From Ignavibacteriota bacterium (GTDB lineage Bacteria; Bacteroidota; Ignavibacteria; UBA10030), in the NCBI GenBank assembly GCA_003162695.1, contig PMML01000099.1:1-43733 (forward strand): 43,733 nucleotides of DNA, in the 5' to 3' direction. How positions within the stretch are numbered: position 1 is the stretch's first letter; each line of letters opens with the position of its first letter. Below, one piece after another: positions 1,970 to 43,733 of the stretch. The position numbers and the translations under genes were made by a program. Below the pieces are notes generated by a model that ran no database searches, was not told where the DNA came from, and saw only the letters and a list, made by a program, of their open reading frames with translations.

Positions 1970-4834
1970 CTATTCGAATTTTGGAATAATTTCTCTGTAT
2001 TTCCAAATTGGTATGACAGAAGTATCGAGATACACACGATCAGGATTGCCAGGATCTAAAATCGTGTATTGGCCATTGCCGATCTTGCTCGTTATAAGCA
2101 CCCAATGTTCATGACCATCGTCTGGACTTATAATTTGTGCAATAGATGGATATCCCTGACTAAGATTGTAATCTAAAGCATCTGTAAAGGCGGCAATCGA
2201 CGGAGGGTACATATGGTGGTTGTGATAAAGAAGACCTATACCTACTGCTTCAGATGCACCAACTGGACTATCTGGATAACCAAACAATGTCGTTTCAAAC
2301 TGAACATTTCCATGATTACCATATCCCTGGTTAACTGGATCATCCATCCAAGTATTCAACATTGAAGGGTCAACATTACACCCAAACCCTTTCAGAGCCA
2401 TTGCCATGTCAGACATAGCACAACCCTTCGCGCTAATATGATAATATGTCGTTTTGCCGTTTATTCTTGTTTTAGCGGTATCCTCATCTTTATCGTAATT
2501 TTGACCTGCCCAATAATCTTGCCATTGACAATAATATTCTCCAAGAGTATTAGCTCCTTTGAGCATAATACTTCTTGTGGGAGACACCAATGATGTACCG
2601 CTTGTTGCATAAAAGCTAATTCCCATTGGAAATCTTCCCGTATATTCGATGCCATTTAATACAAAAGAAACCGATCCATTATAAGCTTGTTTGTAGGGTA
2701 TATCGGTCAAATTCAATCCATTTTGCCCATTGCCTGTCAATTCCCCAAATTGTTCCGTCTCTTGTGAATAGTAGTTTACCGTAATACCTTTTGTGTTCGG
2801 AGAGATTGTTTTCCCGTTCTGATCTTTTAACGATACTGTTAGAGTAGCCGTTTGACCATGGATTACTTTTATAGGGTTTGCTTTCAACGAGATATTGGTA
2901 GGAACGGAATGAACGACAATACAAGTGGCAACGGGCAAGCTGCATGTATGAGGGTTTTGAGCTTCCGTCTCATCGCTCAACTTCAGTACTGTTGCTTTTT
3001 GTGACGTTATAAGACTGTCCTTATTCTTCGCATTCGATCTTGACAGCAAAGCAGCATATCTGGATTTCGAGAATAATTCATCGACCATTCGCTTTCTTTT
3101 CTCTATTCTCTCTTGCTGTAATGCCCCGACTGTTTTTTTATTTGGCACAGGAGAATTAGTCGTAATGTTTTTATTTTCTGTCTTGGCGCCATTTATTATC
3201 GGGTTCATTGAATTGCTGATGATCAAGCCGCAAGGATATCGCTGTACAACGTCTCCTAACGATGCAGAGATTTGTACTGCAACAGAATCTGCAGTAATAG
3301 ACTTTTTGGCAATGAAGTAAAATGGTCCCCAATCATTCTGTAGAGAGGCTCCAGTTGCTCCGGTGGATTCCGATCGGATAAAGCCATAACTCGACATTCC
3401 ATTACCAAGCCAGACATTGAACTGTTGATTATCCGAATATGGTACGATGGAAGTACCATCATAGCGTAATTGATTAAGCAATATTTGTGTCGAATCCCCC
3501 GGTAAAATAGTCGAATCCTGTAGCGCTACATGGAAGCAACCGAGTGAAACATCTATTGAACAAGATCCGTTTCTGTCCGGATAGTCGGTTCGGAGCGCCA
3601 CGAAAGGATCAATGACCTCACTTGAAGTGTTCGGGGGATTAAATTCAACATAGAATTTTATTGTTCCACTTCGCGCAACGCTATAGGGCACTTGAAGATT
3701 AAAATAGCAATTCGTATCATTTTCAAGTTTAAAGTAACCTAATCCTGAGCCCTCACACAATGTTATATTTGCGTTGCCGTCTAATGCCATTTCATTATTA
3801 TTGACATCTTGTGCAATAACGGTGATAATTGTGGAATCTCCTCCCATCATCGTTGTACGATCCGATGTTACTAAGAAATGATGGGGCTTCGCTTTGTATA
3901 AAAGCACTACTGCTCTTTTGCTTTGAAAACCGAATAAATTTGCAGTAATTGCCACAGAATCGACATCACCTACAAGATCGCTGCCATCCCAATAGAGATT
4001 AGCATGAGCATAGGCAGGTTCTTCCACATTGATAGATGATCCCATTACAGGAGTGCCCACATTAAGCTCGTCATTATTGAAAAGATATACATTGCCGAGT
4101 GGATTATTATCAAGCCTTTCAAGACTATAAGATGAAGTTTCAATGCCGCAAAACGGAAGATAGTTCAGATGCAAATCGTAAATGAATGGCCATGTATATA
4201 ATGTATTGGTATAATATGCATTGATCATTCCAGGCCATCCCAAATTAAGTATACAAGTGTCAGCCAGTCCCGAATCTAACGGCATAGTCTGAAGATGTAT
4301 TGTCACTCTAAAAGGATTTGCCTGCCACCATTGCCCACTCACTTGAAAATCTAAAGTTGTGGTAGTCATGGAAACGCTCGAATGAACGATATAAACGGGA
4401 TTATCATAACCATATCCATACGCTTCGCAGCCAAAAGGAAAAAAAGTTCCACAACCTGTAATGAGAGATCTTGGTGAACCTACATCTATAGAACCTGTAC
4501 TGTCGGTCACATCAGAACCGCCAATGAAAACAGCCATGGGATTTGGGTTCACTGTTTGAAGCGTTGAGGTGAACATCACTTGACTGCAAGGCCGGCTAAG
4601 CCAAACAGTCAGATACGGACTCGTTGGATCAAAATCACATTGAAAACATGGGTAGTCTTTAGCCGCAGAAGTCAAGATCCATGACGCAGGTTTTATCTTA
4701 TTAATTTTTGTATTCGGCGCTATCTCGACCCGTTGTTTAATGTTTATCTGTGATGAAAGTTGATGAACGGATAGAAGAGAAAAAATGATCGTTAAAATAA
4801 TACGTAGAATACCGTTGCTTTGTCGTAACTTCAT
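1970..4834 (-). CDS. Secreted protein with C-terminal C39-like cysteine peptidase domain
   Basis: The protein has 954 residues. A signal peptide (about residues 1-29, ending LSVHQLSSQ) implies export. The middle shows beta-rich Ig-like stretches, for example a TATLTVSLKDQNGKTI strand pattern near residue 690, and a charged linker rich in K, R and S. The last 190 residues resemble the peptidase C39-like fold: KGCAMSDMAMAL supplies a candidate nucleophile Cys805, GHEHWVLITS a candidate His910, and YTILDPGNP a candidate Asp927. The motif is GCAMSD rather than the usual GCGPTS, so activity is not certain. The gene precedes the tandem-repeat gene; cleavage or anchoring of that partner is speculation. 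No transporter lies nearby, so a bacteriocin-exporter role is unlikely. Confidence 0.8.
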   Translation of the reverse strand: MKLRQSNGILRIILTIIFSLLSVHQLSSQINIKQRVEIAPNTKINKIKPASWILTSAAKDYPCFQCDFDPTSPYLTVWLSRPCSQVMFTSTLQTVNPNPMAVFIGGSDVTDSTGSIDVGSPRSLITGCGTFFPFGCEAYGYGYDNPVYIVHSSVSMTTTTLDFQVSGQWWQANPFRVTIHLQTMPLDSGLADTCILNLGWPGMINAYYTNTLYTWPFIYDLHLNYLPFCGIETSSYSLERLDNNPLGNVYLFNNDELNVGTPVMGSSINVEEPAYAHANLYWDGSDLVGDVDSVAITANLFGFQSKRAVVLLYKAKPHHFLVTSDRTTMMGGDSTIITVIAQDVNNNEMALDGNANITLCEGSGLGYFKLENDTNCYFNLQVPYSVARSGTIKFYVEFNPPNTSSEVIDPFVALRTDYPDRNGSCSIDVSLGCFHVALQDSTILPGDSTQILLNQLRYDGTSIVPYSDNQQFNVWLGNGMSSYGFIRSESTGATGASLQNDWGPFYFIAKKSITADSVAVQISASLGDVVQRYPCGLIISNSMNPIINGAKTENKNITTNSPVPNKKTVGALQQERIEKRKRMVDELFSKSRYAALLSRSNAKNKDSLITSQKATVLKLSDETEAQNPHTCSLPVATCIVVHSVPTNISLKANPIKVIHGQTATLTVSLKDQNGKTISPNTKGITVNYYSQETEQFGELTGNGQNGLNLTDIPYKQAYNGSVSFVLNGIEYTGRFPMGISFYATSGTSLVSPTRSIMLKGANTLGEYYCQWQDYWAGQNYDKDEDTAKTRINGKTTYYHISAKGCAMSDMAMALKGFGCNVDPSMLNTWMDDPVNQGYGNHGNVQFETTLFGYPDSPVGASEAVGIGLLYHNHHMYPPSIAAFTDALDYNLSQGYPSIAQIISPDDGHEHWVLITSKIGNGQYTILDPGNPDRVYLDTSVIPIWKYREIIPKFE

Positions 4835-5038
4835 AGTGCTTTCCCTTGTTCGTTATACACTTGAATTCAAACAACAGTACACCCCATGGGCGTACATTGG
4901 TACATTTTTCTATAATTTGTCGTTTATGAATCAGCGCGTTGAGAGATTGTTTCGGTATACGCGCACCGGAAAGTTACTTCAAGAGATGGAAATTGTCAAG
5001 TACAAATTTGTCTTTTTGCTGTCATGACCGGTTCACCT

Positions 5039-5060: not shown

Positions 5061-5147
5061 AAAATTAATGAGTGTGAATATAAGTCGCGAATCCATTCCA
5101 TCAATAAGTATGAATTCCCGCAGAACCGACTTTTCGTCCATGTCTCT
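5048..5147 (+). repeat. Dispersed 100-bp element with terminal inverted repeats, copy 1
   Basis: This stretch aligns with 28822-28922. Both copies share GTCCA(T/C)GTCTCT at the right end, the neighbouring GAACCGACTTTTC, TTCCCGC(A/G)G, TCGCGAATCC and an ATGAGT block. They also share the left end, TGAAATGTGAAC here against AGAGACGTGGAC there. The left end here has drifted from a perfect inverted match to the right end. It ends 52 bp before the mutase start codon. No coding frame is shared by the two copies. Confidence 0.6.
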
Positions 5148-6564: not shown

Positions 6565-6565
6565 C

Positions 6566-6650
6566 TCAATGTTCTGCGGTGCTGCCGTTCAAAGTTCTTG
6601 GTTCTTGGTTCTTAGTTTCTATTTTCCATTTTCCATTTACCATTTAACGT
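6566..6650. repeat. Palindrome remnant plus eight-unit heptanucleotide array
   Basis: Positions 6575-6591 (TGCGGTGCTGCCGTTCA) match the right half of the palindromic elements at 21798-21883 and 42169-42206. From 6595 to 6650 there are eight consecutive 7-mers beginning TT: TTCTTGG twice, TTCTTAG, TTTCTAT, TTTCCAT twice, TTACCAT and TTAACGT. It fills most of the gap between the mutase gene and dprA. Confidence 0.75.
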
Positions 6651-6669
6651 TCTTCAGGGGGATACTACA

Positions 6670-10486: not shown

Positions 10487-11875
10487 GTGGCAAAAAAACA
10501 ATCAATACAATCAAACGGCAATGAATTGACGCCGCGGCAGATCGTCCGTGAATTGGATAAATATATCATCGGGCAGGATGCGGCAAAAAAATCGGTCGCA
10601 ATCGCCCTGCGGAACCGCTGGCGAAGGCTTCAGGTCGCCGAAGGGCTGCGCGAAGAAATCATGCCGAACAATATTATACTCATCGGACCGACCGGCGTCG
10701 GAAAAACGGAAATAGCAAGACGGCTTGCAAAACTTTCCGCAGCACCGTTTATCAAGGTGGAAGCTTCCAAATTCACGGAGGTCGGTTATGTCGGGCGCGA
10801 TGTGGAATCGATCGTTCGGGACCTTACGGAAATCGGCGTGAACATGGTCAAAGCGGAAAAATCCGCGCAAGTGCAGGACAAAGCACGAACCCTTGCCGAC
10901 GAACGGCTGCTGGATATTCTTCTTCCGCCGGTCAAACGAACACAGATTGCATCTCCGGACGAACAGCCGCATGAAAATCATGACGATCAGGAAAAAACTC
11001 GCGTCAAATTCCGTGATAAATTGCTGAACGGTTCCTTTGAAGAACGCTTGGTGGAAATCGAATTGCCGGCAATCCCGACACCGCTTATGCAGGTGATGGG
11101 TCCTTTTTCCGTCGAAGAGATGGGAATCAATTTGCAGGAAATGCTCGGCAGCATAGCGCCGCAAAAAAAGAAGAACCGGAAAGTAACCGTCGCCGAAGCG
11201 CGTCAGATTTTCATACAGGAAGAATCGCAGAAACTGATCGACATGGAAAAGGCGGTCAAAGAAGCCCTGGAACGCATCGAAAATTCAGGAATCGTTTTCA
11301 TAGATGAAATCGATAAAATTACAAGCGCGCGCGGGCAGCAGGGAGGGCCGGATGTATCGCGGGAAGGCGTCCAGCGGGATCTTTTACCGATCGTCGAAGG
11401 ATCGAATGTTTTAACAAAATACGGAATGGTAAAGACCGATCATATTCTCTTTATCGCATCCGGAGCGTTCCATATCGCCAAACCTTCCGACCTCATACCG
11501 GAACTTCAGGGCCGTTTTCCAATCCGCGTGGAACTGAAAAGCTTGAGCGAAGACGATTTTGTTAAAATTCTAACGCTCCCCCAAAACGCACTCCTCAAGC
11601 AATATATAGCTCTCATGAAGACGGAAGGAATTACAATCGAATTCGAAGCGGACGCTATTCGCGAGATTGCAAAAATCGCTTTTGAAGTGAACGAACAGGT
11701 GGAGAATATCGGCGCACGGAGACTGCACACGATTATGACGACGCTGTTGGAAGAGCATCTTTACGATGCCCCCGACGCACTCAAATCGACTTCCCTTAAC
11801 ATCACGAAAGAAATCGTTCAACGGAAACTGAATTCAATCGTCAAGAACCGGGACCTGAGCCGATACATTTTATAA
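10487..11875 (+). CDS. hslU: HslUV protease ATPase subunit HslU
   Basis: HslU is the AAA+ unfoldase that feeds substrates to HslV. It starts with GTG one base after the hslV stop, an arrangement typical of coupled translation. In 462 residues the sequence shows [16 protein letters not shown] at the N-terminus, Walker [10 protein letters not shown] (about 67-75), the pore motif GYVGRDVE, an intermediate domain (about 110-240), Walker B IVFIDEID, and the C-terminal SRYIL tail that inserts into HslV. Length matches the family. It ends the plus-strand run; a REP-like element and a strong terminator follow. Confidence 0.97.
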
Positions 11876-11901
11876 AAGCCTTTAAATTTCACCATTAACT
11901 T

Positions 11902-12062
11902 TGTAGCCGCGACAGACCTGCCCCCATGGGGTTGTTCCGAGAATATTGATAGAAATTATCGAGAGGTCGTCGCGGAGTATTCCGACACCACTTGTAGCCG
12001 CGACCGCTGGTCGCGGGGAATCCCGACACCACCCCATAGGGGCAGCGCCGGTGTCGGCTACA
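11902..12062. repeat. Two tandem REP-like palindromic elements
   Basis: TGTAGCCGCGAC occurs at 11902 and 11994. The second copy (11994-12062) can fold into a branched structure: outer arms TGTAGCC/GGCTACA (11994-12000, 12056-12062), hairpin CCGCGACC/GGTCGCGG (11998-12005, 12009-12016), and stem CCGACACC/GGTGTCGG (12023-12030, 12050-12057) enclosing CCCCATAGGGG. The first copy keeps CCCCATGGGG, a GTCGCGG arm and CCGACACCAC but is decayed. The layout resembles REP/BIME elements mobilised by RAYT transposases; no RAYT gene is in the window. Confidence 0.65.
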
Positions 12063-12066
12063 GAAG

Positions 12067-12099
12067 AAAAAAAGGGGCAAGTCATCTTGCCCCTTTTTT
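12067..12099. terminator. Bidirectional Rho-independent terminator
   Basis: AAAAAAAGGGGCAAG, loop TCAT, CTTGCCCCTTTTTT: a perfect stem flanked by A and T runs. It lies between the convergent hslU (plus) and the outer-membrane protein gene (minus) and can serve both. Confidence 0.9.
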
Positions 12100-12126
12100 A
12101 AAAAATCTTTCTTTGTTCTCTATAAC

Positions 12127-13536
12127 TTACAGCCGAACCTTCAACCCAAATGCCACCGTCATAGCGTTGAAACTTTTCGGGTAGAATGCGGATCCGAATG
12201 TATCCGTGGCAAAATCCAGATCGAGCACCCAGAAATCGAGTCCGAAACCGAATGCCCAGCGTGTAATATCGTCTCCTCCTAAAACAAGACCCGTCCTCAG
12301 CGGCAGAAGCGGAATAATCCTGTACTCCGTGCCGATGGAGTACCTCGCTTTTGTCGTATTGCCAAGCGATTCGTTAAATCCCTGCGCATATTCAAAAGCA
12401 AGAATCATGTGACCCGGCAGGAACGACAATCCAGGAATTTTTTGCGCTTCCATGCTCGTGCCCAGGCGCATGACGGTCGGTAATGCCGTTGTAAATGAGC
12501 CGCCTGTTTGATTTTTACCCTTGAAGATATTCTTCGCACTATCCTGGATTGCGGGGGAATATCCGTGATATACAAAGCTGGTATCACCAGTCGTGATAAT
12601 GACATTCTTATTCCATGTAATGCTTCCGGCATCGGTTAGACTCCATGAAACCATCATGCCATCATTCAATTCCGCCGTCAGACCAAAATCGAATCCCTTG
12701 CCTTGACCGACAGGACTCGGAAACGGTGTAAGTTCCGGTTTTGGGCTGGCGTCGTTATTGAAGAAATCCACACCGGCCCGCTGTGTTGCAAAATCATCAC
12801 TTGCAGTAATCGTGTTCTGCCCAAGATCATCGGTCGTGGAATTTGTGATAAAGCCGTTACTCTTCGTTGTCTGGGCAATTCCAAATCCGCTGATAAATTT
12901 TATACCGGCGCCTACATATAAAGACTTAGTAAAAGGAAGAAAATTCGGAATTTTTCGCGCATAGGAAAGATTATATTCGCGGTACAACCATGCATCAAAG
13001 TTTGTTCCACTCAAATCAAAAGTGGAATTTGAGGGCAGGCCAATCATGTAGAGATTTACATATCCCTGTGTGAGAGTGATTGTGGAACCGGCATGGTCCA
13101 TTACAGCAAAACCGAAATTCCCTAGTACTCCTGCCTGGAAAGACAGGCCTGCCCACATTATGTCGACATTCACTTTTGTCCTCGGGTTAGCCGGCATCTG
13201 GCTTAGAATATAATTCTTATCCGCATCCGTCAGCGGGTAAGGAACGCGTTTGCCTGTACTGTCGGGAATGCCTGTAAAATATTTCATATATGTGTCGTAG
13301 GACATCAATTCCGTACTGATGTGTGTATCCGTCTGAACAAGACTGATAACGAAGGGGGCAATGCCCGGAACGGCCAGATTGGCGGGATTGATGCCGATGG
13401 CATCCGTTCCCCTTGCAATTGTTACTGCTGTGCGCCCCATACCGAGTGTTGTAATACTTGTTCTATCCTGGGCAAAAGCGAATAAAGAAAACGCCACTGC
13501 CAGTGCAACAAGCGAAGATATTCTCATCGTTTTCAT
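12127..13536 (-). CDS. PorV/UPF0164-like outer-membrane beta-barrel protein
   Basis: The 469-residue product begins with a signal peptide (MKTMRISSLVALAVAFSLFAFA). It then has LGMGRTAVTIARGTDAIGINPANLA, here split into its LGMG and INPANLA halves, a signature seen at the start of PorV/PorQ/UPF0164 and DUF5723-like barrels of the FCB group. The remainder alternates aromatic-rich strands and ends in a strand closing with a hydrophobic residue pattern (MTVAFGLKVRL), as outer-membrane barrels do. The frame is open further upstream, but ATG 13536 has an AGGAGA ribosome site and clears the preceding gene by 10 bp. It is co-transcribed with the upstream lipoprotein. Substrate or partner is unknown. 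Confidence 0.75.
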   Translation of the reverse strand: MKTMRISSLVALAVAFSLFAFAQDRTSITTLGMGRTAVTIARGTDAIGINPANLAVPGIAPFVISLVQTDTHISTELMSYDTYMKYFTGIPDSTGKRVPYPLTDADKNYILSQMPANPRTKVNVDIMWAGLSFQAGVLGNFGFAVMDHAGSTITLTQGYVNLYMIGLPSNSTFDLSGTNFDAWLYREYNLSYARKIPNFLPFTKSLYVGAGIKFISGFGIAQTTKSNGFITNSTTDDLGQNTITASDDFATQRAGVDFFNNDASPKPELTPFPSPVGQGKGFDFGLTAELNDGMMVSWSLTDAGSITWNKNVIITTGDTSFVYHGYSPAIQDSAKNIFKGKNQTGGSFTTALPTVMRLGTSMEAQKIPGLSFLPGHMILAFEYAQGFNESLGNTTKARYSIGTEYRIIPLLPLRTGLVLGGDDITRWAFGFGLDFWVLDLDFATDTFGSAFYPKSFNAMTVAFGLKVRL

Positions 13537-21774: not shown

Positions 21775-21955
21775 TTCTAAGTTCGCGGTTCGTCGTTATC
21801 GTTCAATGTGCCTGCCTGCGTGACGACGTCAGCAGTCGGCGTCGCCCCAATGCGGGCAGGCTGCGGTGCTGCCGTTGAACGATTGTCTGGTTTCACTGTT
21901 ATATAGTTATGTATTTAATTCTGTATTCTTAATTCTATATTCTGAATTCTGAATT
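21775..21955. repeat. Composite palindrome with flanking heptamer arrays inside nuo cluster
   Basis: Four 7-mers (21775-21802: TTCTAAG, TTCGCGG, TTCGTCG, TTATCGT) lead into a large palindrome. It has outer arms ATCGTTCAA/TTGAACGAT (21798-21806, 21875-21883) and inner arms GCCTGCC/GGCAGGC (21810-21816, 21855-21861), and includes TGACGACGTCA. From 21919 to 21953 five 7-mers follow (TTCTGTA, TTCTTAA, TTCTATA, TTCTGAA twice), ending at the nuoD stop codon. It occupies nearly all of the nuoD-nuoE gap. Confidence 0.75.
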
Positions 21956-23220
21956 TATTTATCCGCTTCTCCCATGATCGGATCGATGCTGCCGATAATC
22001 GCAACGACATCGGAGATCATCGCTCCTTTTGCCATGAGGCCGAGAGCCTGCAGGTTTACCATCGAAGGGGACCGGATTTTCAGGCGCCAGGGACAGCCGT
22101 CTCCTTTGCTGTTGATATAAAATCCGAGTTCACCTTTGGGCGATTCGACGGCATGGTATACTTCTCCGGACGGCGGTTCGATGCCGAAATTGATAAGCAT
22201 AAAATCATGAATCAGTTCTTCCATTTTTGAATACACCCTCTGCTTGTGGGGCAGGACTTTTTTGGGACGATCAGGATAAATTTCTCCGGCCGGTATTTTA
22301 TCCAGGATCTGCCGCACGATCTTCGTACTTTCTTTCATTTCCGCCATGCGCACATAATATCGCGCGAGTACATCTCCTCCCTCGAAGACAGGAACTTCAA
22401 AATCGAGTTCCTTGTAGACAAGATACGGATTTGCCCGGCGCAGGTCATGCTGGAAACCGCATGCCCGAAGTGAAGGACCCGTAACGCCGAGATCGAGAGC
22501 GTTCTCAAGCGAAATCGTTCCGATCCCATCCGTCCTTCCGATAAAAATACTGTTCGTATTGAGCAATTGTTCGGACTCGCCGAGATTCGCCGGAAATTCC
22601 TCTATGAATTTCCGAATCATGTTCATTGCCCCGGGTGAAAGGTCTTGAGCAACTCCACCGATGCGCGCATAGCTCGTTGTAAATCTGGCTCCGGCAATCG
22701 CTTCAAAAATATCGTATAATTTTTCCCGTTCCCTAAATGTCCACATCCATACCGTCAGCGCGCCGACGTCCATTGCAAGCGATCCGGCAAACATCAGATG
22801 CGATGAAATTCTGGCCAGCTCCGATACCAGCGTGCGGATATACTGCGCGCGCGGAGGCGCTTCAATGCCGAGCAATTTCTCCACTGCAAGCACATACGCC
22901 GTATTATTAGACATGGGAGAAATATAATCAAGCCGGTCGGTATGCGGAATAAATTCGTGGTAGCTGCAATGTTCCGCAAGTTTTTCGTAGCCGCGGTGCA
23001 GATAGCCGAGTTCGGGAACCGCTGCGATTACCGTTTCGCCGTCAAGCTTAATAAGCAGCCGCAGGACGCCATGCGTAGCCGGATGCTGCGGTCCCATATT
23101 GAGAATCATCTCGCTCTCAAGCGGGTCGTCGAACGACACGGTTGTGTGTTCGTTTTCCAGCGCCTGAAGAATCTTCGATTTACGTCCGGTCTGTCCTGTC
23201 GTCTGTTCCATATTTTTCAT
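21955..23220 (-). CDS. nuoD: NADH-quinone oxidoreductase subunit D
   Basis: NuoD is the 49-kDa subunit that, with NuoB, forms the quinone-reducing site. The 421 residues carry MILNMGPQHPATHGVLR near 40, ELGYLHRGYEK, the TDRLDYISPMSNN segment, and a C-terminal DVVAIIGSIDPIMGE. The last residue is Lys where Arg is usual, a conservative change. The start at 23220 overlaps the nuoC end by 41 bp; a second in-frame ATG at 23211 is nearly as good and neither has a strong ribosome site. The stop codon sits directly at a heptamer array. Confidence 0.95.
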   Translation of the reverse strand: MKNMEQTTGQTGRKSKILQALENEHTTVSFDDPLESEMILNMGPQHPATHGVLRLLIKLDGETVIAAVPELGYLHRGYEKLAEHCSYHEFIPHTDRLDYISPMSNNTAYVLAVEKLLGIEAPPRAQYIRTLVSELARISSHLMFAGSLAMDVGALTVWMWTFREREKLYDIFEAIAGARFTTSYARIGGVAQDLSPGAMNMIRKFIEEFPANLGESEQLLNTNSIFIGRTDGIGTISLENALDLGVTGPSLRACGFQHDLRRANPYLVYKELDFEVPVFEGGDVLARYYVRMAEMKESTKIVRQILDKIPAGEIYPDRPKKVLPHKQRVYSKMEELIHDFMLINFGIEPPSGEVYHAVESPKGELGFYINSKGDGCPWRLKIRSPSMVNLQALGLMAKGAMISDVVAIIGSIDPIMGEADK

Positions 23221-28821: not shown

Positions 28822-28922
28822 AGAGACGTGGACAAGAACTCATGAGTTAAAAATAGTTATCGCGAATCCGTCTTAGAATGAGATACAAATTCCCGCGGAA
28901 CCGACTTTTCGTCCACGTCTCT
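28822..28922 (+). repeat. Dispersed 100-bp element with terminal inverted repeats, copy 2
   Basis: The ends AGAGACGTGGAC (28822-28833) and GTCCACGTCTCT (28911-28922) are a perfect 12-bp inverted repeat. Inside lie the palindrome AACTCATGAGTT, TCGCGAATCC and TTCCCGCGGAACCGAC. The interior and both ends align with 5048-5147. An alternative fold pairs TCTTAGA (28871) with TCTAAGA (28919) and AATCCG (28865) with CGGATT followed by T's (28939). It ends 39 bp before the rpmB -35 box. Confidence 0.65.
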
Positions 28923-42152: not shown

Positions 42153-42378
42153 TTCTTTATTCTTTCATCGTTCAACGTGCTGCGGTGTCAGTGCTGCCGT
42201 TGAACGTTTTTTCAATTCTTTTGTCTATTGACCGCTGTTCCATTTGGAATCACACTATCGCGTGAATACATTTTCAGGCCCGCCTGCGTGACTGTTTACC
42301 ATTCACTATTGACCATTCACCATTTACTATTCACCCTTCTGAATTCATCATTCTGAATTCTTCATTCTGAATTCTCTG
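42153..42378. repeat. Palindrome and twelve-unit heptamer array between flxD and flxC
   Basis: CGTTCAACG (42169-42177) and CGTTGAACG (42198-42206) are perfect arms around TGCTGCGGTGTCAGTGCTGC, and a T6 run follows. After a CCCGCCTGCGTGACTG block (42279-42294), twelve consecutive 7-mers run from 42295 to 42378 without a break: TTTACCA, TTCACTA, TTGACCA, TTCACCA, TTTACTA, TTCACCC, TTCTGAA, TTCATCA, TTCTGAA, TTCTTCA, TTCTGAA and TTCTCTG. The last units lie inside the flxD reading frame. Confidence 0.85.
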
Positions 42379-42777
42379 TGCCGGTCCCAATTCGCGAATT
42401 TCCCGCACGGTCGTATTGACAATATCCGCCCATTTCGCTCCTTCTGCCGCAGAGACCCAGGAAAATTTTACGCGGCGCATATCGTATCCCATATATTCCA
42501 TCATTTGCTTAAAAACAATCCAGCGGCGGCGCGCATGGAAATTTCCCGATGTATAATGACAATCGTTCGGGTGACAGCCGGAAACGATAATGCCGTCCGC
42601 GCCGAGAGCTAATGCTTTTAAAAGTAAATTGTAGTCGATACGCCCCGTGCATGGAAAGCGCACAATGCGCACATTGGCCGCATATTTAATGCGGCTGGTT
42701 CCGGTCAGGTCTGCGCCTGCATAGGTACACCAGTTGCAAACATACGCCACGATTTTCGGTTCGAATGTATTTTCCAT
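42331..42777 (-). CDS. flxD: FlxD/MvhD-like iron-sulfur electron-transfer subunit
   Basis: The 148-residue product is a member of the MvhD (FlpD) family, which passes electrons to HdrA through a [2Fe-2S] cluster. It has IVAYVCNWCTYAGADLTG, RFPCTGRIDY, the DGIIVSGCHPNDCHY cluster motif and a C-terminal family domain to LGPAQRI. The last twelve residues (QNEEFRMMNSEG) are encoded by the heptamer array at 42331-42378 and are not part of the family. It starts one base after the hdrA stop. Confidence 0.85.
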   Translation of the reverse strand: MENTFEPKIVAYVCNWCTYAGADLTGTSRIKYAANVRIVRFPCTGRIDYNLLLKALALGADGIIVSGCHPNDCHYTSGNFHARRRWIVFKQMMEYMGYDMRRVKFSWVSAAEGAKWADIVNTTVREIRELGPAQRIQNEEFRMMNSEG

Positions 42778-42778
42778 C

Positions 42779-43733
42779 TTAGCTCAGGAGCTCCAATACT
42801 TCCGCATAAACCTGTTCGTTGCTGTAGCCCTGCAGGTCGATCGATTTGGATTTGCAGAATGCAACGCACGTTCCGCATCCCTGGCACAATCCGGGATTCA
42901 CCCGTGCGACCGACCTGATGACTTTACCATCACGCGTTTTAATCTCTTCCCGCTCGATTGCATGATAGGGACACGCCGTTTCACACATAAAACAACCGGC
43001 ACACGTCGAGAAAAGCGGAGGCGCTGTCCGGTTCACAACTGCAATGACCGGCTCGCGCGTCAATTCATCGCGTGAGAAAAGTGCAAGCACTTTACTTGCC
43101 GCCGCCGATGCCTGACTGACGGTATCGGGAATATCTTTGGGAGATTGGCATGCACCGGCGAGGAAAATTCCACCCGTGTTTGTTTCCACCGGGCGCAGCT
43201 TGGGATGTGCTTCCGAAAAGAAACGATACTTATCGTAACTGATATGCAGTTTTTGGGCAAGTTCTTCCGATCCCGGATTGGATATACCGGCGGTCGCAAG
43301 GACAACCATGTCCGCTTCGATTTCCACCTGCTGCGCGCCAAGGAGTGTATCCGCACCGTGTACGATCAGTTTTCCGTTCCGTTCATACACACGCGACACG
43401 CGCCCGCGGATATAGTTCACGCTGTCTTCTTCGATAGCGCGGCGGACAAATTCATCGTATCCTTTTCCGCCGGCGCGGATGTCCATATAAAAAACATACG
43501 CTTCCGCATCGTGTACTTTGTGTTTATAGAGCATTGCATGTTTTGCCGTATACATGCAGCAAATTTTCGAGCAATAATCGATCCCTTTCGCCGGATCGCG
43601 CGATCCTGCACATGCGATGAAAACTATTTTTTTCGGAACATTCCCATCTGAAGGACGCCTTACTTCGCCCAGCGTCGGGCCGGACGCCGAGAGCAGGCGT
43701 TCGAATTGTAATCCGTTGACGACGTCTTTGTAC
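42779..43733 (-). CDS. hdrA: HdrA-like heterodisulfide reductase subunit A, 5' end beyond window
   Basis: The frame is open from the right edge to the TAA at 42779, about 317 residues, so the N-terminal part with the FAD dinucleotide fold is missing. What remains is clearly HdrA: ERLLSASGPTLGEVRRPSDG, FIACAGSRDPAKGIDYCSKI, CCMYTAKHA, ADMVVLATAG, GIFLAGACQSPKDIPDTVSQ and two C-terminal ferredoxin motifs, CAGCFMCETACP and CQGCGTCVAFCKSKSI. HdrA carries the bifurcating flavin in methanogens and in the Flx-Hdr complexes. hdrB and hdrC, if present, would lie beyond the right edge. Confidence 0.88.
   Translation of the reverse strand, partial: YKDVVNGLQFERLLSASGPTLGEVRRPSDGNVPKKIVFIACAGSRDPAKGIDYCSKICCMYTAKHAMLYKHKVHDAEAYVFYMDIRAGGKGYDEFVRRAIEEDSVNYIRGRVSRVYERNGKLIVHGADTLLGAQQVEIEADMVVLATAGISNPGSEELAQKLHISYDKYRFFSEAHPKLRPVETNTGGIFLAGACQSPKDIPDTVSQASAAASKVLALFSRDELTREPVIAVVNRTAPPLFSTCAGCFMCETACPYHAIEREEIKTRDGKVIRSVARVNPGLCQGCGTCVAFCKSKSIDLQGYSNEQVYAEVLELLS

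Follow-up and report, generated by a model that had tools for sequence, protein, structure and literature searches.

Imperfect seven- and eight-base tandem arrays in the gene gaps of an Ignavibacteriota genome and their place in a polar composite with a hairpin repeat

Intergenic tandem repeats with a seven-base unit include the STRR of the cyanobacteria Calothrix and Nostoc and the heptameric LSSRs (Mrazek 2007), both of which are cited in PMC4692102 and PMC4679880. Arrays of the heptamer TAACTGA are found in Beggiatoaceae, Cyanobacteria and five Bacteroidetes, and those of the Beggiatoaceae, which lie upstream of start codons, were proposed to be regulator-binding sites (PMC4679880). The heptameric repeats of Xanthomonas and Nostoc have the units GGGAATC and GGGGA(C/T)T (PMC4692102). 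In the SPADE survey of 7006 prokaryotic genomes the heptamer is given, in the passage concerned, as the most abundant intergenic period of prokaryotes from many groups and is left unexplained (PMC6344855). A second type of described system, the REPs, flank RAYT genes in inverted orientation (PMC2817692).

The window analysed here, a stretch of 43,733 nucleotides from an Ignavibacteriota bacterium, contains heptad arrays in three gene gaps. The original prediction had divided positions 42295-42378 into twelve 7-mers, each starting with TT, and this reading is exact. Delimited by repeat finder and shuffles, the array spans 42289..42378 (+ strand), has about 12 units of a TTTACCA/TTCACTA type grading into a TTCTGAA type and is flanked by the genes for an iron-sulphur protein and mvhD/FlpD. 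The array between a phosphoglucomutase/phosphomannomutase-family gene (glmM-like) and dprA, given as eight units at 6595-6650, is real but was drawn too short, since nine TT-phased units occupy 6588-6650; its limits by the same methods are 6587..6651 (+), with GTTCTTG grading into TTTTCCA and TTTACCA. At the third locus, the nuoD-nuoE gap, two stretches had been proposed, 21775-21802 and 21919-21953. The latter is solid (21917..21955, +; repeat finder and shuffles; units ATTCTGT, ATTCTTA, ATTCTAT, ATTCTGA, ATTCTGA), whereas the former, a four-unit stretch at the opposite end of the gap (21775..21802, +), is the weakest of all (region score 9.5, p = 0.0025 against shuffles). The solid array follows immediately on the stop codon of nuoD and is antisense to the operon. 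The protein encoded by nuoD (21955-23220, minus strand) shares 77-78% identity with proteins from Ignavibacteriales and from related Bacteroidetes MAGs.

The period-7 scores of the three gaps are 28.7, 37.1 and 19.6, compared with maxima of 12.5, 12.1 and 12.6 in 2000 dinucleotide-preserving shuffles per gap, none of which reached the observed score. The TT-phased runs, 12 and 9 units long, are also above the longest run in the shuffles (6), and Tandem Repeats Finder reported overlapping 7-, 14- and 21-bp arrays at the 42.3-kb locus, at 6594-6645 and at 21915-21955. A search of a plasmid collection with the 6565-6669 gap was uninformative, since its matches, most of them to Acinetobacter, were no longer than 25 bp and had an E of 0.3, and an Rfam 15 search of the window gave no match at the gathering score.

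The identification of heptad arrays was correct but incomplete, as they are part of a larger polar composite containing octads and a hairpin, and are not built from one fixed unit. An 8-bp period, a GTTCAAC/GTGCTGC block adjoining all three arrays and a hairpin at 42234-42285 had all been overlooked. In the 42.3-kb gap the composite starts with a block GTTCAACG - GTGCTGCGGTGTCAGTGCTGCC - GTTGAACG (42170..42206, +), in which octad family c lies between b motifs. The corresponding octad c blocks are GTTCTGCGGTGCTGCCGTTCAA (6571..6592, +), adjoining the heptads, and, together with a b motif, CTGCGGTGCTGCCGTTGAACG (21861..21881, +). The full order is TTCTTAG, GTTCAAC, GTGCTGCG octads, GTTATTTG octads, TTTACTATTCACC heptads, hairpin and again heptads. 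The GTTCAAC/GTGCTGC block is itself an octad run; with one mismatch allowed it was found 57 times in the genome, and the reversed control pattern not at all. On the same strand, family c precedes d in 13/14 cases and e in 15/15, and d precedes e in 13/13; the order held on both strands. Because all three arrays adjoin this block and the family order is fixed, the arrays represent the heptad part of the composite. When all gaps were compared with each other, 445 pairs matched, as opposed to 1 in shuffles; the matches include other dispersed repeats. One of these is a long imperfect palindrome inside the composite, GCCTGCCTGCG...GCGGGCAGGC (21810..21861, strand not assigned), which is 95% identical over 41 bp to a copy at locus L017. 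In one pair of copies, identity is 93% over 100 bp, heptads and hairpin included, and in the array just upstream one copy is longer by about 29 bp, or about four units. The length of octad runs depends on the locus and ranges from one or two units to about ten. This gain and loss of units is observed among copies within one genome. The octad core GTGCTGCNGTGCTGCNGTT was found 35 times in the window's genome and in 7/293 other genomes, with a single chance-level match in each, which rules it out as a class-wide element. Integron attC-like core sites were also set aside; GTTCAAC...GTTGAAC fits RYYYAAC...GTTRRRY, but so does any such inverted repeat, and the operons that contain these gaps are ordinary.

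The genome is a draft MAG, 98.7% complete, whose 132 contigs add up to 3.38 Mb. Periods were counted in samples of 393 kb and 305 kb, an array being counted when its period run had a score of at least 12. The genome-wide excess of period 7 on which the original prediction depended is present, with 24 gaps against 0.2 in shuffles in the 393-kb sample, where period 8 gave 14 against 0.07. The 305-kb sample gave 11 against 0.3 for period 7 and 3 against 0.2 for period 8. In the 393-kb sample the excess extends to multiples of 7 and 8, is marginal for period 9 (2 against 0.1) and is absent for periods 4-6 and 10-13. Period-7 arrays occurred in 4/2372 chunks of coding DNA and period-8 arrays in none. 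The three window arrays thus belong to a genome-wide population of imperfect intergenic 7- and 8-bp arrays. A foreign origin of the array-rich contigs was considered and rejected, the composition of one of them, C114, being ordinary. Like the STRR and LSSRs, these arrays consist of tandem 7-bp units beyond chance expectation and are intergenic (24 + 11 gaps in the two samples); many loci per genome, unknown function and a proposed origin by slippage are further common features. They differ in being highly degenerate ladders, in having a second period of 8, in their fixed order with a hairpin repeat and in occurring in an Ignavibacteria-type lineage. The SPADE passage likewise names heptamers only, whereas octads are also strongly over-represented here.

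A set of 80 named loci from the class is likewise dominated by period 7, which was found in 20 gaps where 1.0 would be expected, and deeper samples of four genomes of the family contained 2-4 period-7 gaps each, with none in shuffles. The nuoD-nuoE gap was examined in these relatives because the window carries an array there, the window's own genome being outside the 80. An array lies within 100 bp after nuoD in 16/75 genomes compared with 7/382 after other genes, a count in which related genomes may be represented repeatedly; among matched co-directional gaps the proportions are 14/42 for nuoD-nuoE and 5/82 for others (p = 1.4e-4, uncorrected for kinship). The nuoD-nuoE gap thus stands out as a hotspot across Ignavibacteria/Chlorobi relatives. 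Its units mostly differ among genomes (AATTAAG, AATTACT, ATTGGAA, GATGAAG, CAATTCG and others, several with an AATT core), and some relatives have perfect or nearly perfect arrays (AATTAAG x7, AATTACT x5). The heptameric repeats of Xanthomonas and Nostoc similarly have conserved and variable unit positions and occupy the same gaps in relatives with varying length and sequence (PMC4692102); their units form G-quadruplexes, whereas most units of the present genome are rich in A and T and not in G. No report of a companion period of 8, a polar composite or a class-wide hot gap was found in the open-access literature searched. A search of the same literature also found no description for Ignavibacteria, but the view that such arrays had not been described for this type of organism does not hold more widely, TAACTGA arrays from five Bacteroidetes having been published (PMC4679880) and 7006 prokaryotic genomes surveyed (PMC6344855).

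Within the period-7 arrays, unit identity is 0.70 between neighbours, 0.55 four units apart and, at distances of seven to nine units, about 0.35-0.39, compared with 0.27 for random sequence. As the detection threshold itself favours similar neighbours, only the decay past the first neighbour counts as evidence. Near units that are alike and far units that are unlike are the pattern expected from unit-by-unit duplication with mutation. Transitions account for 44% of unit mismatches (31% expected from composition), and the period shifts from 8 to 7 inside one run. The heptad arrays of the window's genome are degenerate ladders and do not show near-exact repetition of one unit.

The 42.3-kb array also forms the 3' end of a gene. 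The mvhD/FlpD gene (42331..42777, minus strand; PF02662, E 1.7e-48) takes its last 15 codons and stop from the array (42331..42378, minus strand), the translated tail being ...RIQNEEFRMMNSEG*, and in the 148-residue product the FlpD domain extends to residue 131. Three relatives, G024 (mvhD protein 91% identical), G033 and G001, have the same next gene, short gaps and no arrays, and their mvhD tails are other sequences such as EYLEMSRQGVA. By this comparison the twelve-unit array has taken the place of the original final codons and stop of mvhD; C-terminal tails annotated in genomes of this kind may likewise derive from repeats. As a separate observation, the mvhD protein is 91% identical to that of G024, which is of another genus, and 86% to that of G033, of another family, and the corresponding values for nuoD are about 74% and 72%. 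Since the mvhD identity is far above that of nuoD, the hdr/mvh cluster (window 42331-43733) may have moved horizontally.

The degenerate arrays probably arise in gene gaps by slipped-strand duplication and drift, without sequence-specific function. Single 7- or 8-bp units would be duplicated by slipped strands in gaps that tolerate growth, and ordinary point mutation would then make the units drift. The generating step may be slippage by a replication or repair polymerase, with 7-8 nt corresponding to the duplex span that the polymerase holds, an idea from the literature (Mrazek 2007, cited in PMC4679880 and PMC4692102). Several arrays would have been joined in a fixed order around the hairpin element and the assembly copied to many gaps, as their correlation suggests, possibly by RAYT-assisted transposition or gene conversion. 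Slippage and drift are favoured by the restriction to periods 7, 8 and their multiples (with a marginal 9), by the decay of identity and by the excess of transitions. Copies of one composite that differ in unit number point the same way, and so do the replaced mvhD tail and the function tests described below. The observation least well covered by this explanation is the gap hotspot, which simple neutral slippage does not predict and which might point to some cause or use peculiar to that site.

The hairpin element, H (42234..42285, + strand), has a 7-bp stem (42249-42255 / 42260-42266) and a conserved flank, ACATTTTCAGGCC. The window copy scored 48.4 bits (E 1.9e-10) with a covariance model, partly by construction because it was included in that model. 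H is 52 nt long, the stem and a loop of four being followed by ACATNNTNAGGCCTCCGGC, and has about 54 copies in the genome. Among unfiltered pattern hits, 183/259 cells of the stem are paired, compared with 152 ± 6 when partners were re-dealt and a maximum of 175 in 1000 such trials. Changes on both sides of the stem were found in 30 cells of the aligned set against 9 in shuffles, the set having been pre-filtered for foldability, and in 46 against 11 in an independent set from other genera that was fitted to the model. Like REPs, H is therefore an intergenic palindrome that is dispersed and has compensatory changes in its stem. Of 19 sampled copies of H, 15 have an array within 200 bp, with fixed polarity; families a (7:0), c (8:2) and d (7:0) are upstream of H on the same strand and e is downstream (10:0). 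H directly precedes a RAYT gene on contig C104 (NF047646, 90.3 bits), and in another genome, G007, a related RAYT gene lies between two identical same-orientation copies of H (L318, G007:C7:22801-24300), so RAYT and H are neighbours in two genera. The surroundings of the latter gene contain more GAGTCCAGCTCG...GGACGA repeats. At another locus (L192, G000:C52) a long palindrome, GCCTGC...GCAGGC, is inserted in the tail of H between CAGG and CCTCCGGC, so that repeats nest.

H shares with REP/RAYT systems its dispersed intergenic hairpins, covarying stems and nearby RAYT gene (PMC2817692). It differs in keeping the flank ACATNNTNAGGCCTCCGGC while varying the stem, and in that the RAYT-flanking pair is direct and not inverted; no GT(A/G)G (GTAG-type) head is evident in H alignment A1. 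A scan of about 33 RAYT loci with the covariance model of H found a full-scoring copy at only one, 1.6 kb away. Because the other RAYT loci are without H and the published inverted arrangement is not seen, we call H REP-like and not a REP. The whole composite could be a mobile REP/RAYT-like element with heptads that belong to its ends as a working component and are required for transposition. Its fixed order on either strand, the 93% copy pair, the two RAYT associations and the closeness of most H copies to an array are all in line with this. We nevertheless regard it as unlikely: H is dispersed without heptads in the family members G007, G006, G225 and G024, so H and the arrays are separable, and many heptad arrays of the window's genome are without c, d or H. 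The near-absence of H from RAYT loci and the direct orientation of the G007 pair count against it as well.

By analogy with the repeats of Beggiatoaceae, the arrays might instead be sites for a DNA- or RNA-binding regulator, in an untranslated leader or between operon genes. Arrays are frequent in co-directional gaps, unit families are shared between loci and the nuoD-nuoE gap is occupied recurrently across the class, all in line with this. With gene orientations taken from plain ORF calls, however, the composite is sense to co-directional genes in 5 cases and antisense in 9 (p = 0.42), the purine-rich strand is the sense strand in 13/25, and the median distance of arrays is 22 bp from the upstream stop but 45 bp from the downstream start. 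If anything, arrays are scarcer in divergent gaps, which are the places of promoters (3/38 with arrays against 60/299 others, p = 0.08), and a promoter or leader signal was rejected on the unbiased orientation and the lack of enrichment in these gaps. Stop trinucleotides are equally frequent in sense and antisense (77 and 77), and an all-frame stop-codon device was rejected on this count. As the arrays have no strand, stop-codon or promoter preference, regulation is unsupported, and the complete drift of units within an array (0.35-0.39 identity between units seven to nine places apart) also argues against a recognised site; regulator binding is distinctly unlikely. The TAACTGA repeats are also intergenic heptamer arrays and also found in Bacteroidetes, but have one fixed heptamer, mostly just upstream of starts and in a single orientation (PMC4679880), whereas the arrays described here have many other units and no preference for orientation or start codons. 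Two periods, unit-by-unit drift, the lack of strand or promoter preference, growth into a gene end and a hot gap constrain any explanation of the 7-bp period and make the choice between a polymerase slippage register and a regulatory site directly testable.

There is a slim chance that a dedicated or strongly localised process acts at certain gaps, such as templated iterative synthesis at nicked hairpins like H, with the period kept or regenerated at nuoD-nuoE while the letters are replaced. If so, a mechanism whose template register is 7-8 nt would account for the widespread 7-bp intergenic periodicity of bacteria. That the arrays were made in one pass, by error-prone synthesis recopying the preceding 7-8 nt (break-repair templated insertion or a nicked hairpin), seems very improbable. 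Similarity of nearest neighbours is not unique to slippage, as one-pass templated synthesis yields the same, and ladder-like drift at a constant period, the change from 8 to 7 within one run and the hairpins adjoining arrays would all be accommodated. The transition excess, however, suits ordinary mutation of older arrays, and the perfect or near-perfect arrays of relatives are a prediction of slippage. Chance or an assembly or binning artefact, conceivable in a metagenome-assembled draft of 132 contigs, can safely be dismissed, being refuted by the shuffle tests at the window gaps and in both genome samples, by the recurrence of period 7 in independent genomes of the class and by the ordinary composition of array-rich C114.

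The window contains several other repeats. A 237-bp tandem repeat at 59-903, with copies about 70% alike, lies within a large minus-strand reading frame (1-1950) and looks like a repeated extracellular domain. Two 63-bp stretches, at 5085-5147 and 28860-28922, are 78% alike (TCGCGAATCC...CCGACTTTTCGTCCA) and apparently represent another dispersed repeat. A further dispersed family is found at 4815-4958, where a 125-bp segment shares 79% identity with a gap in a different contig (L151). The 11856-12424 gap has another multi-copy palindromic repeat (CCGACACCGGCGCTGCC...GGTGTCGG), which is 92% identical over 76 bp to a copy on C118 (L165) and 83% over 88 bp to one on C35 (L022).
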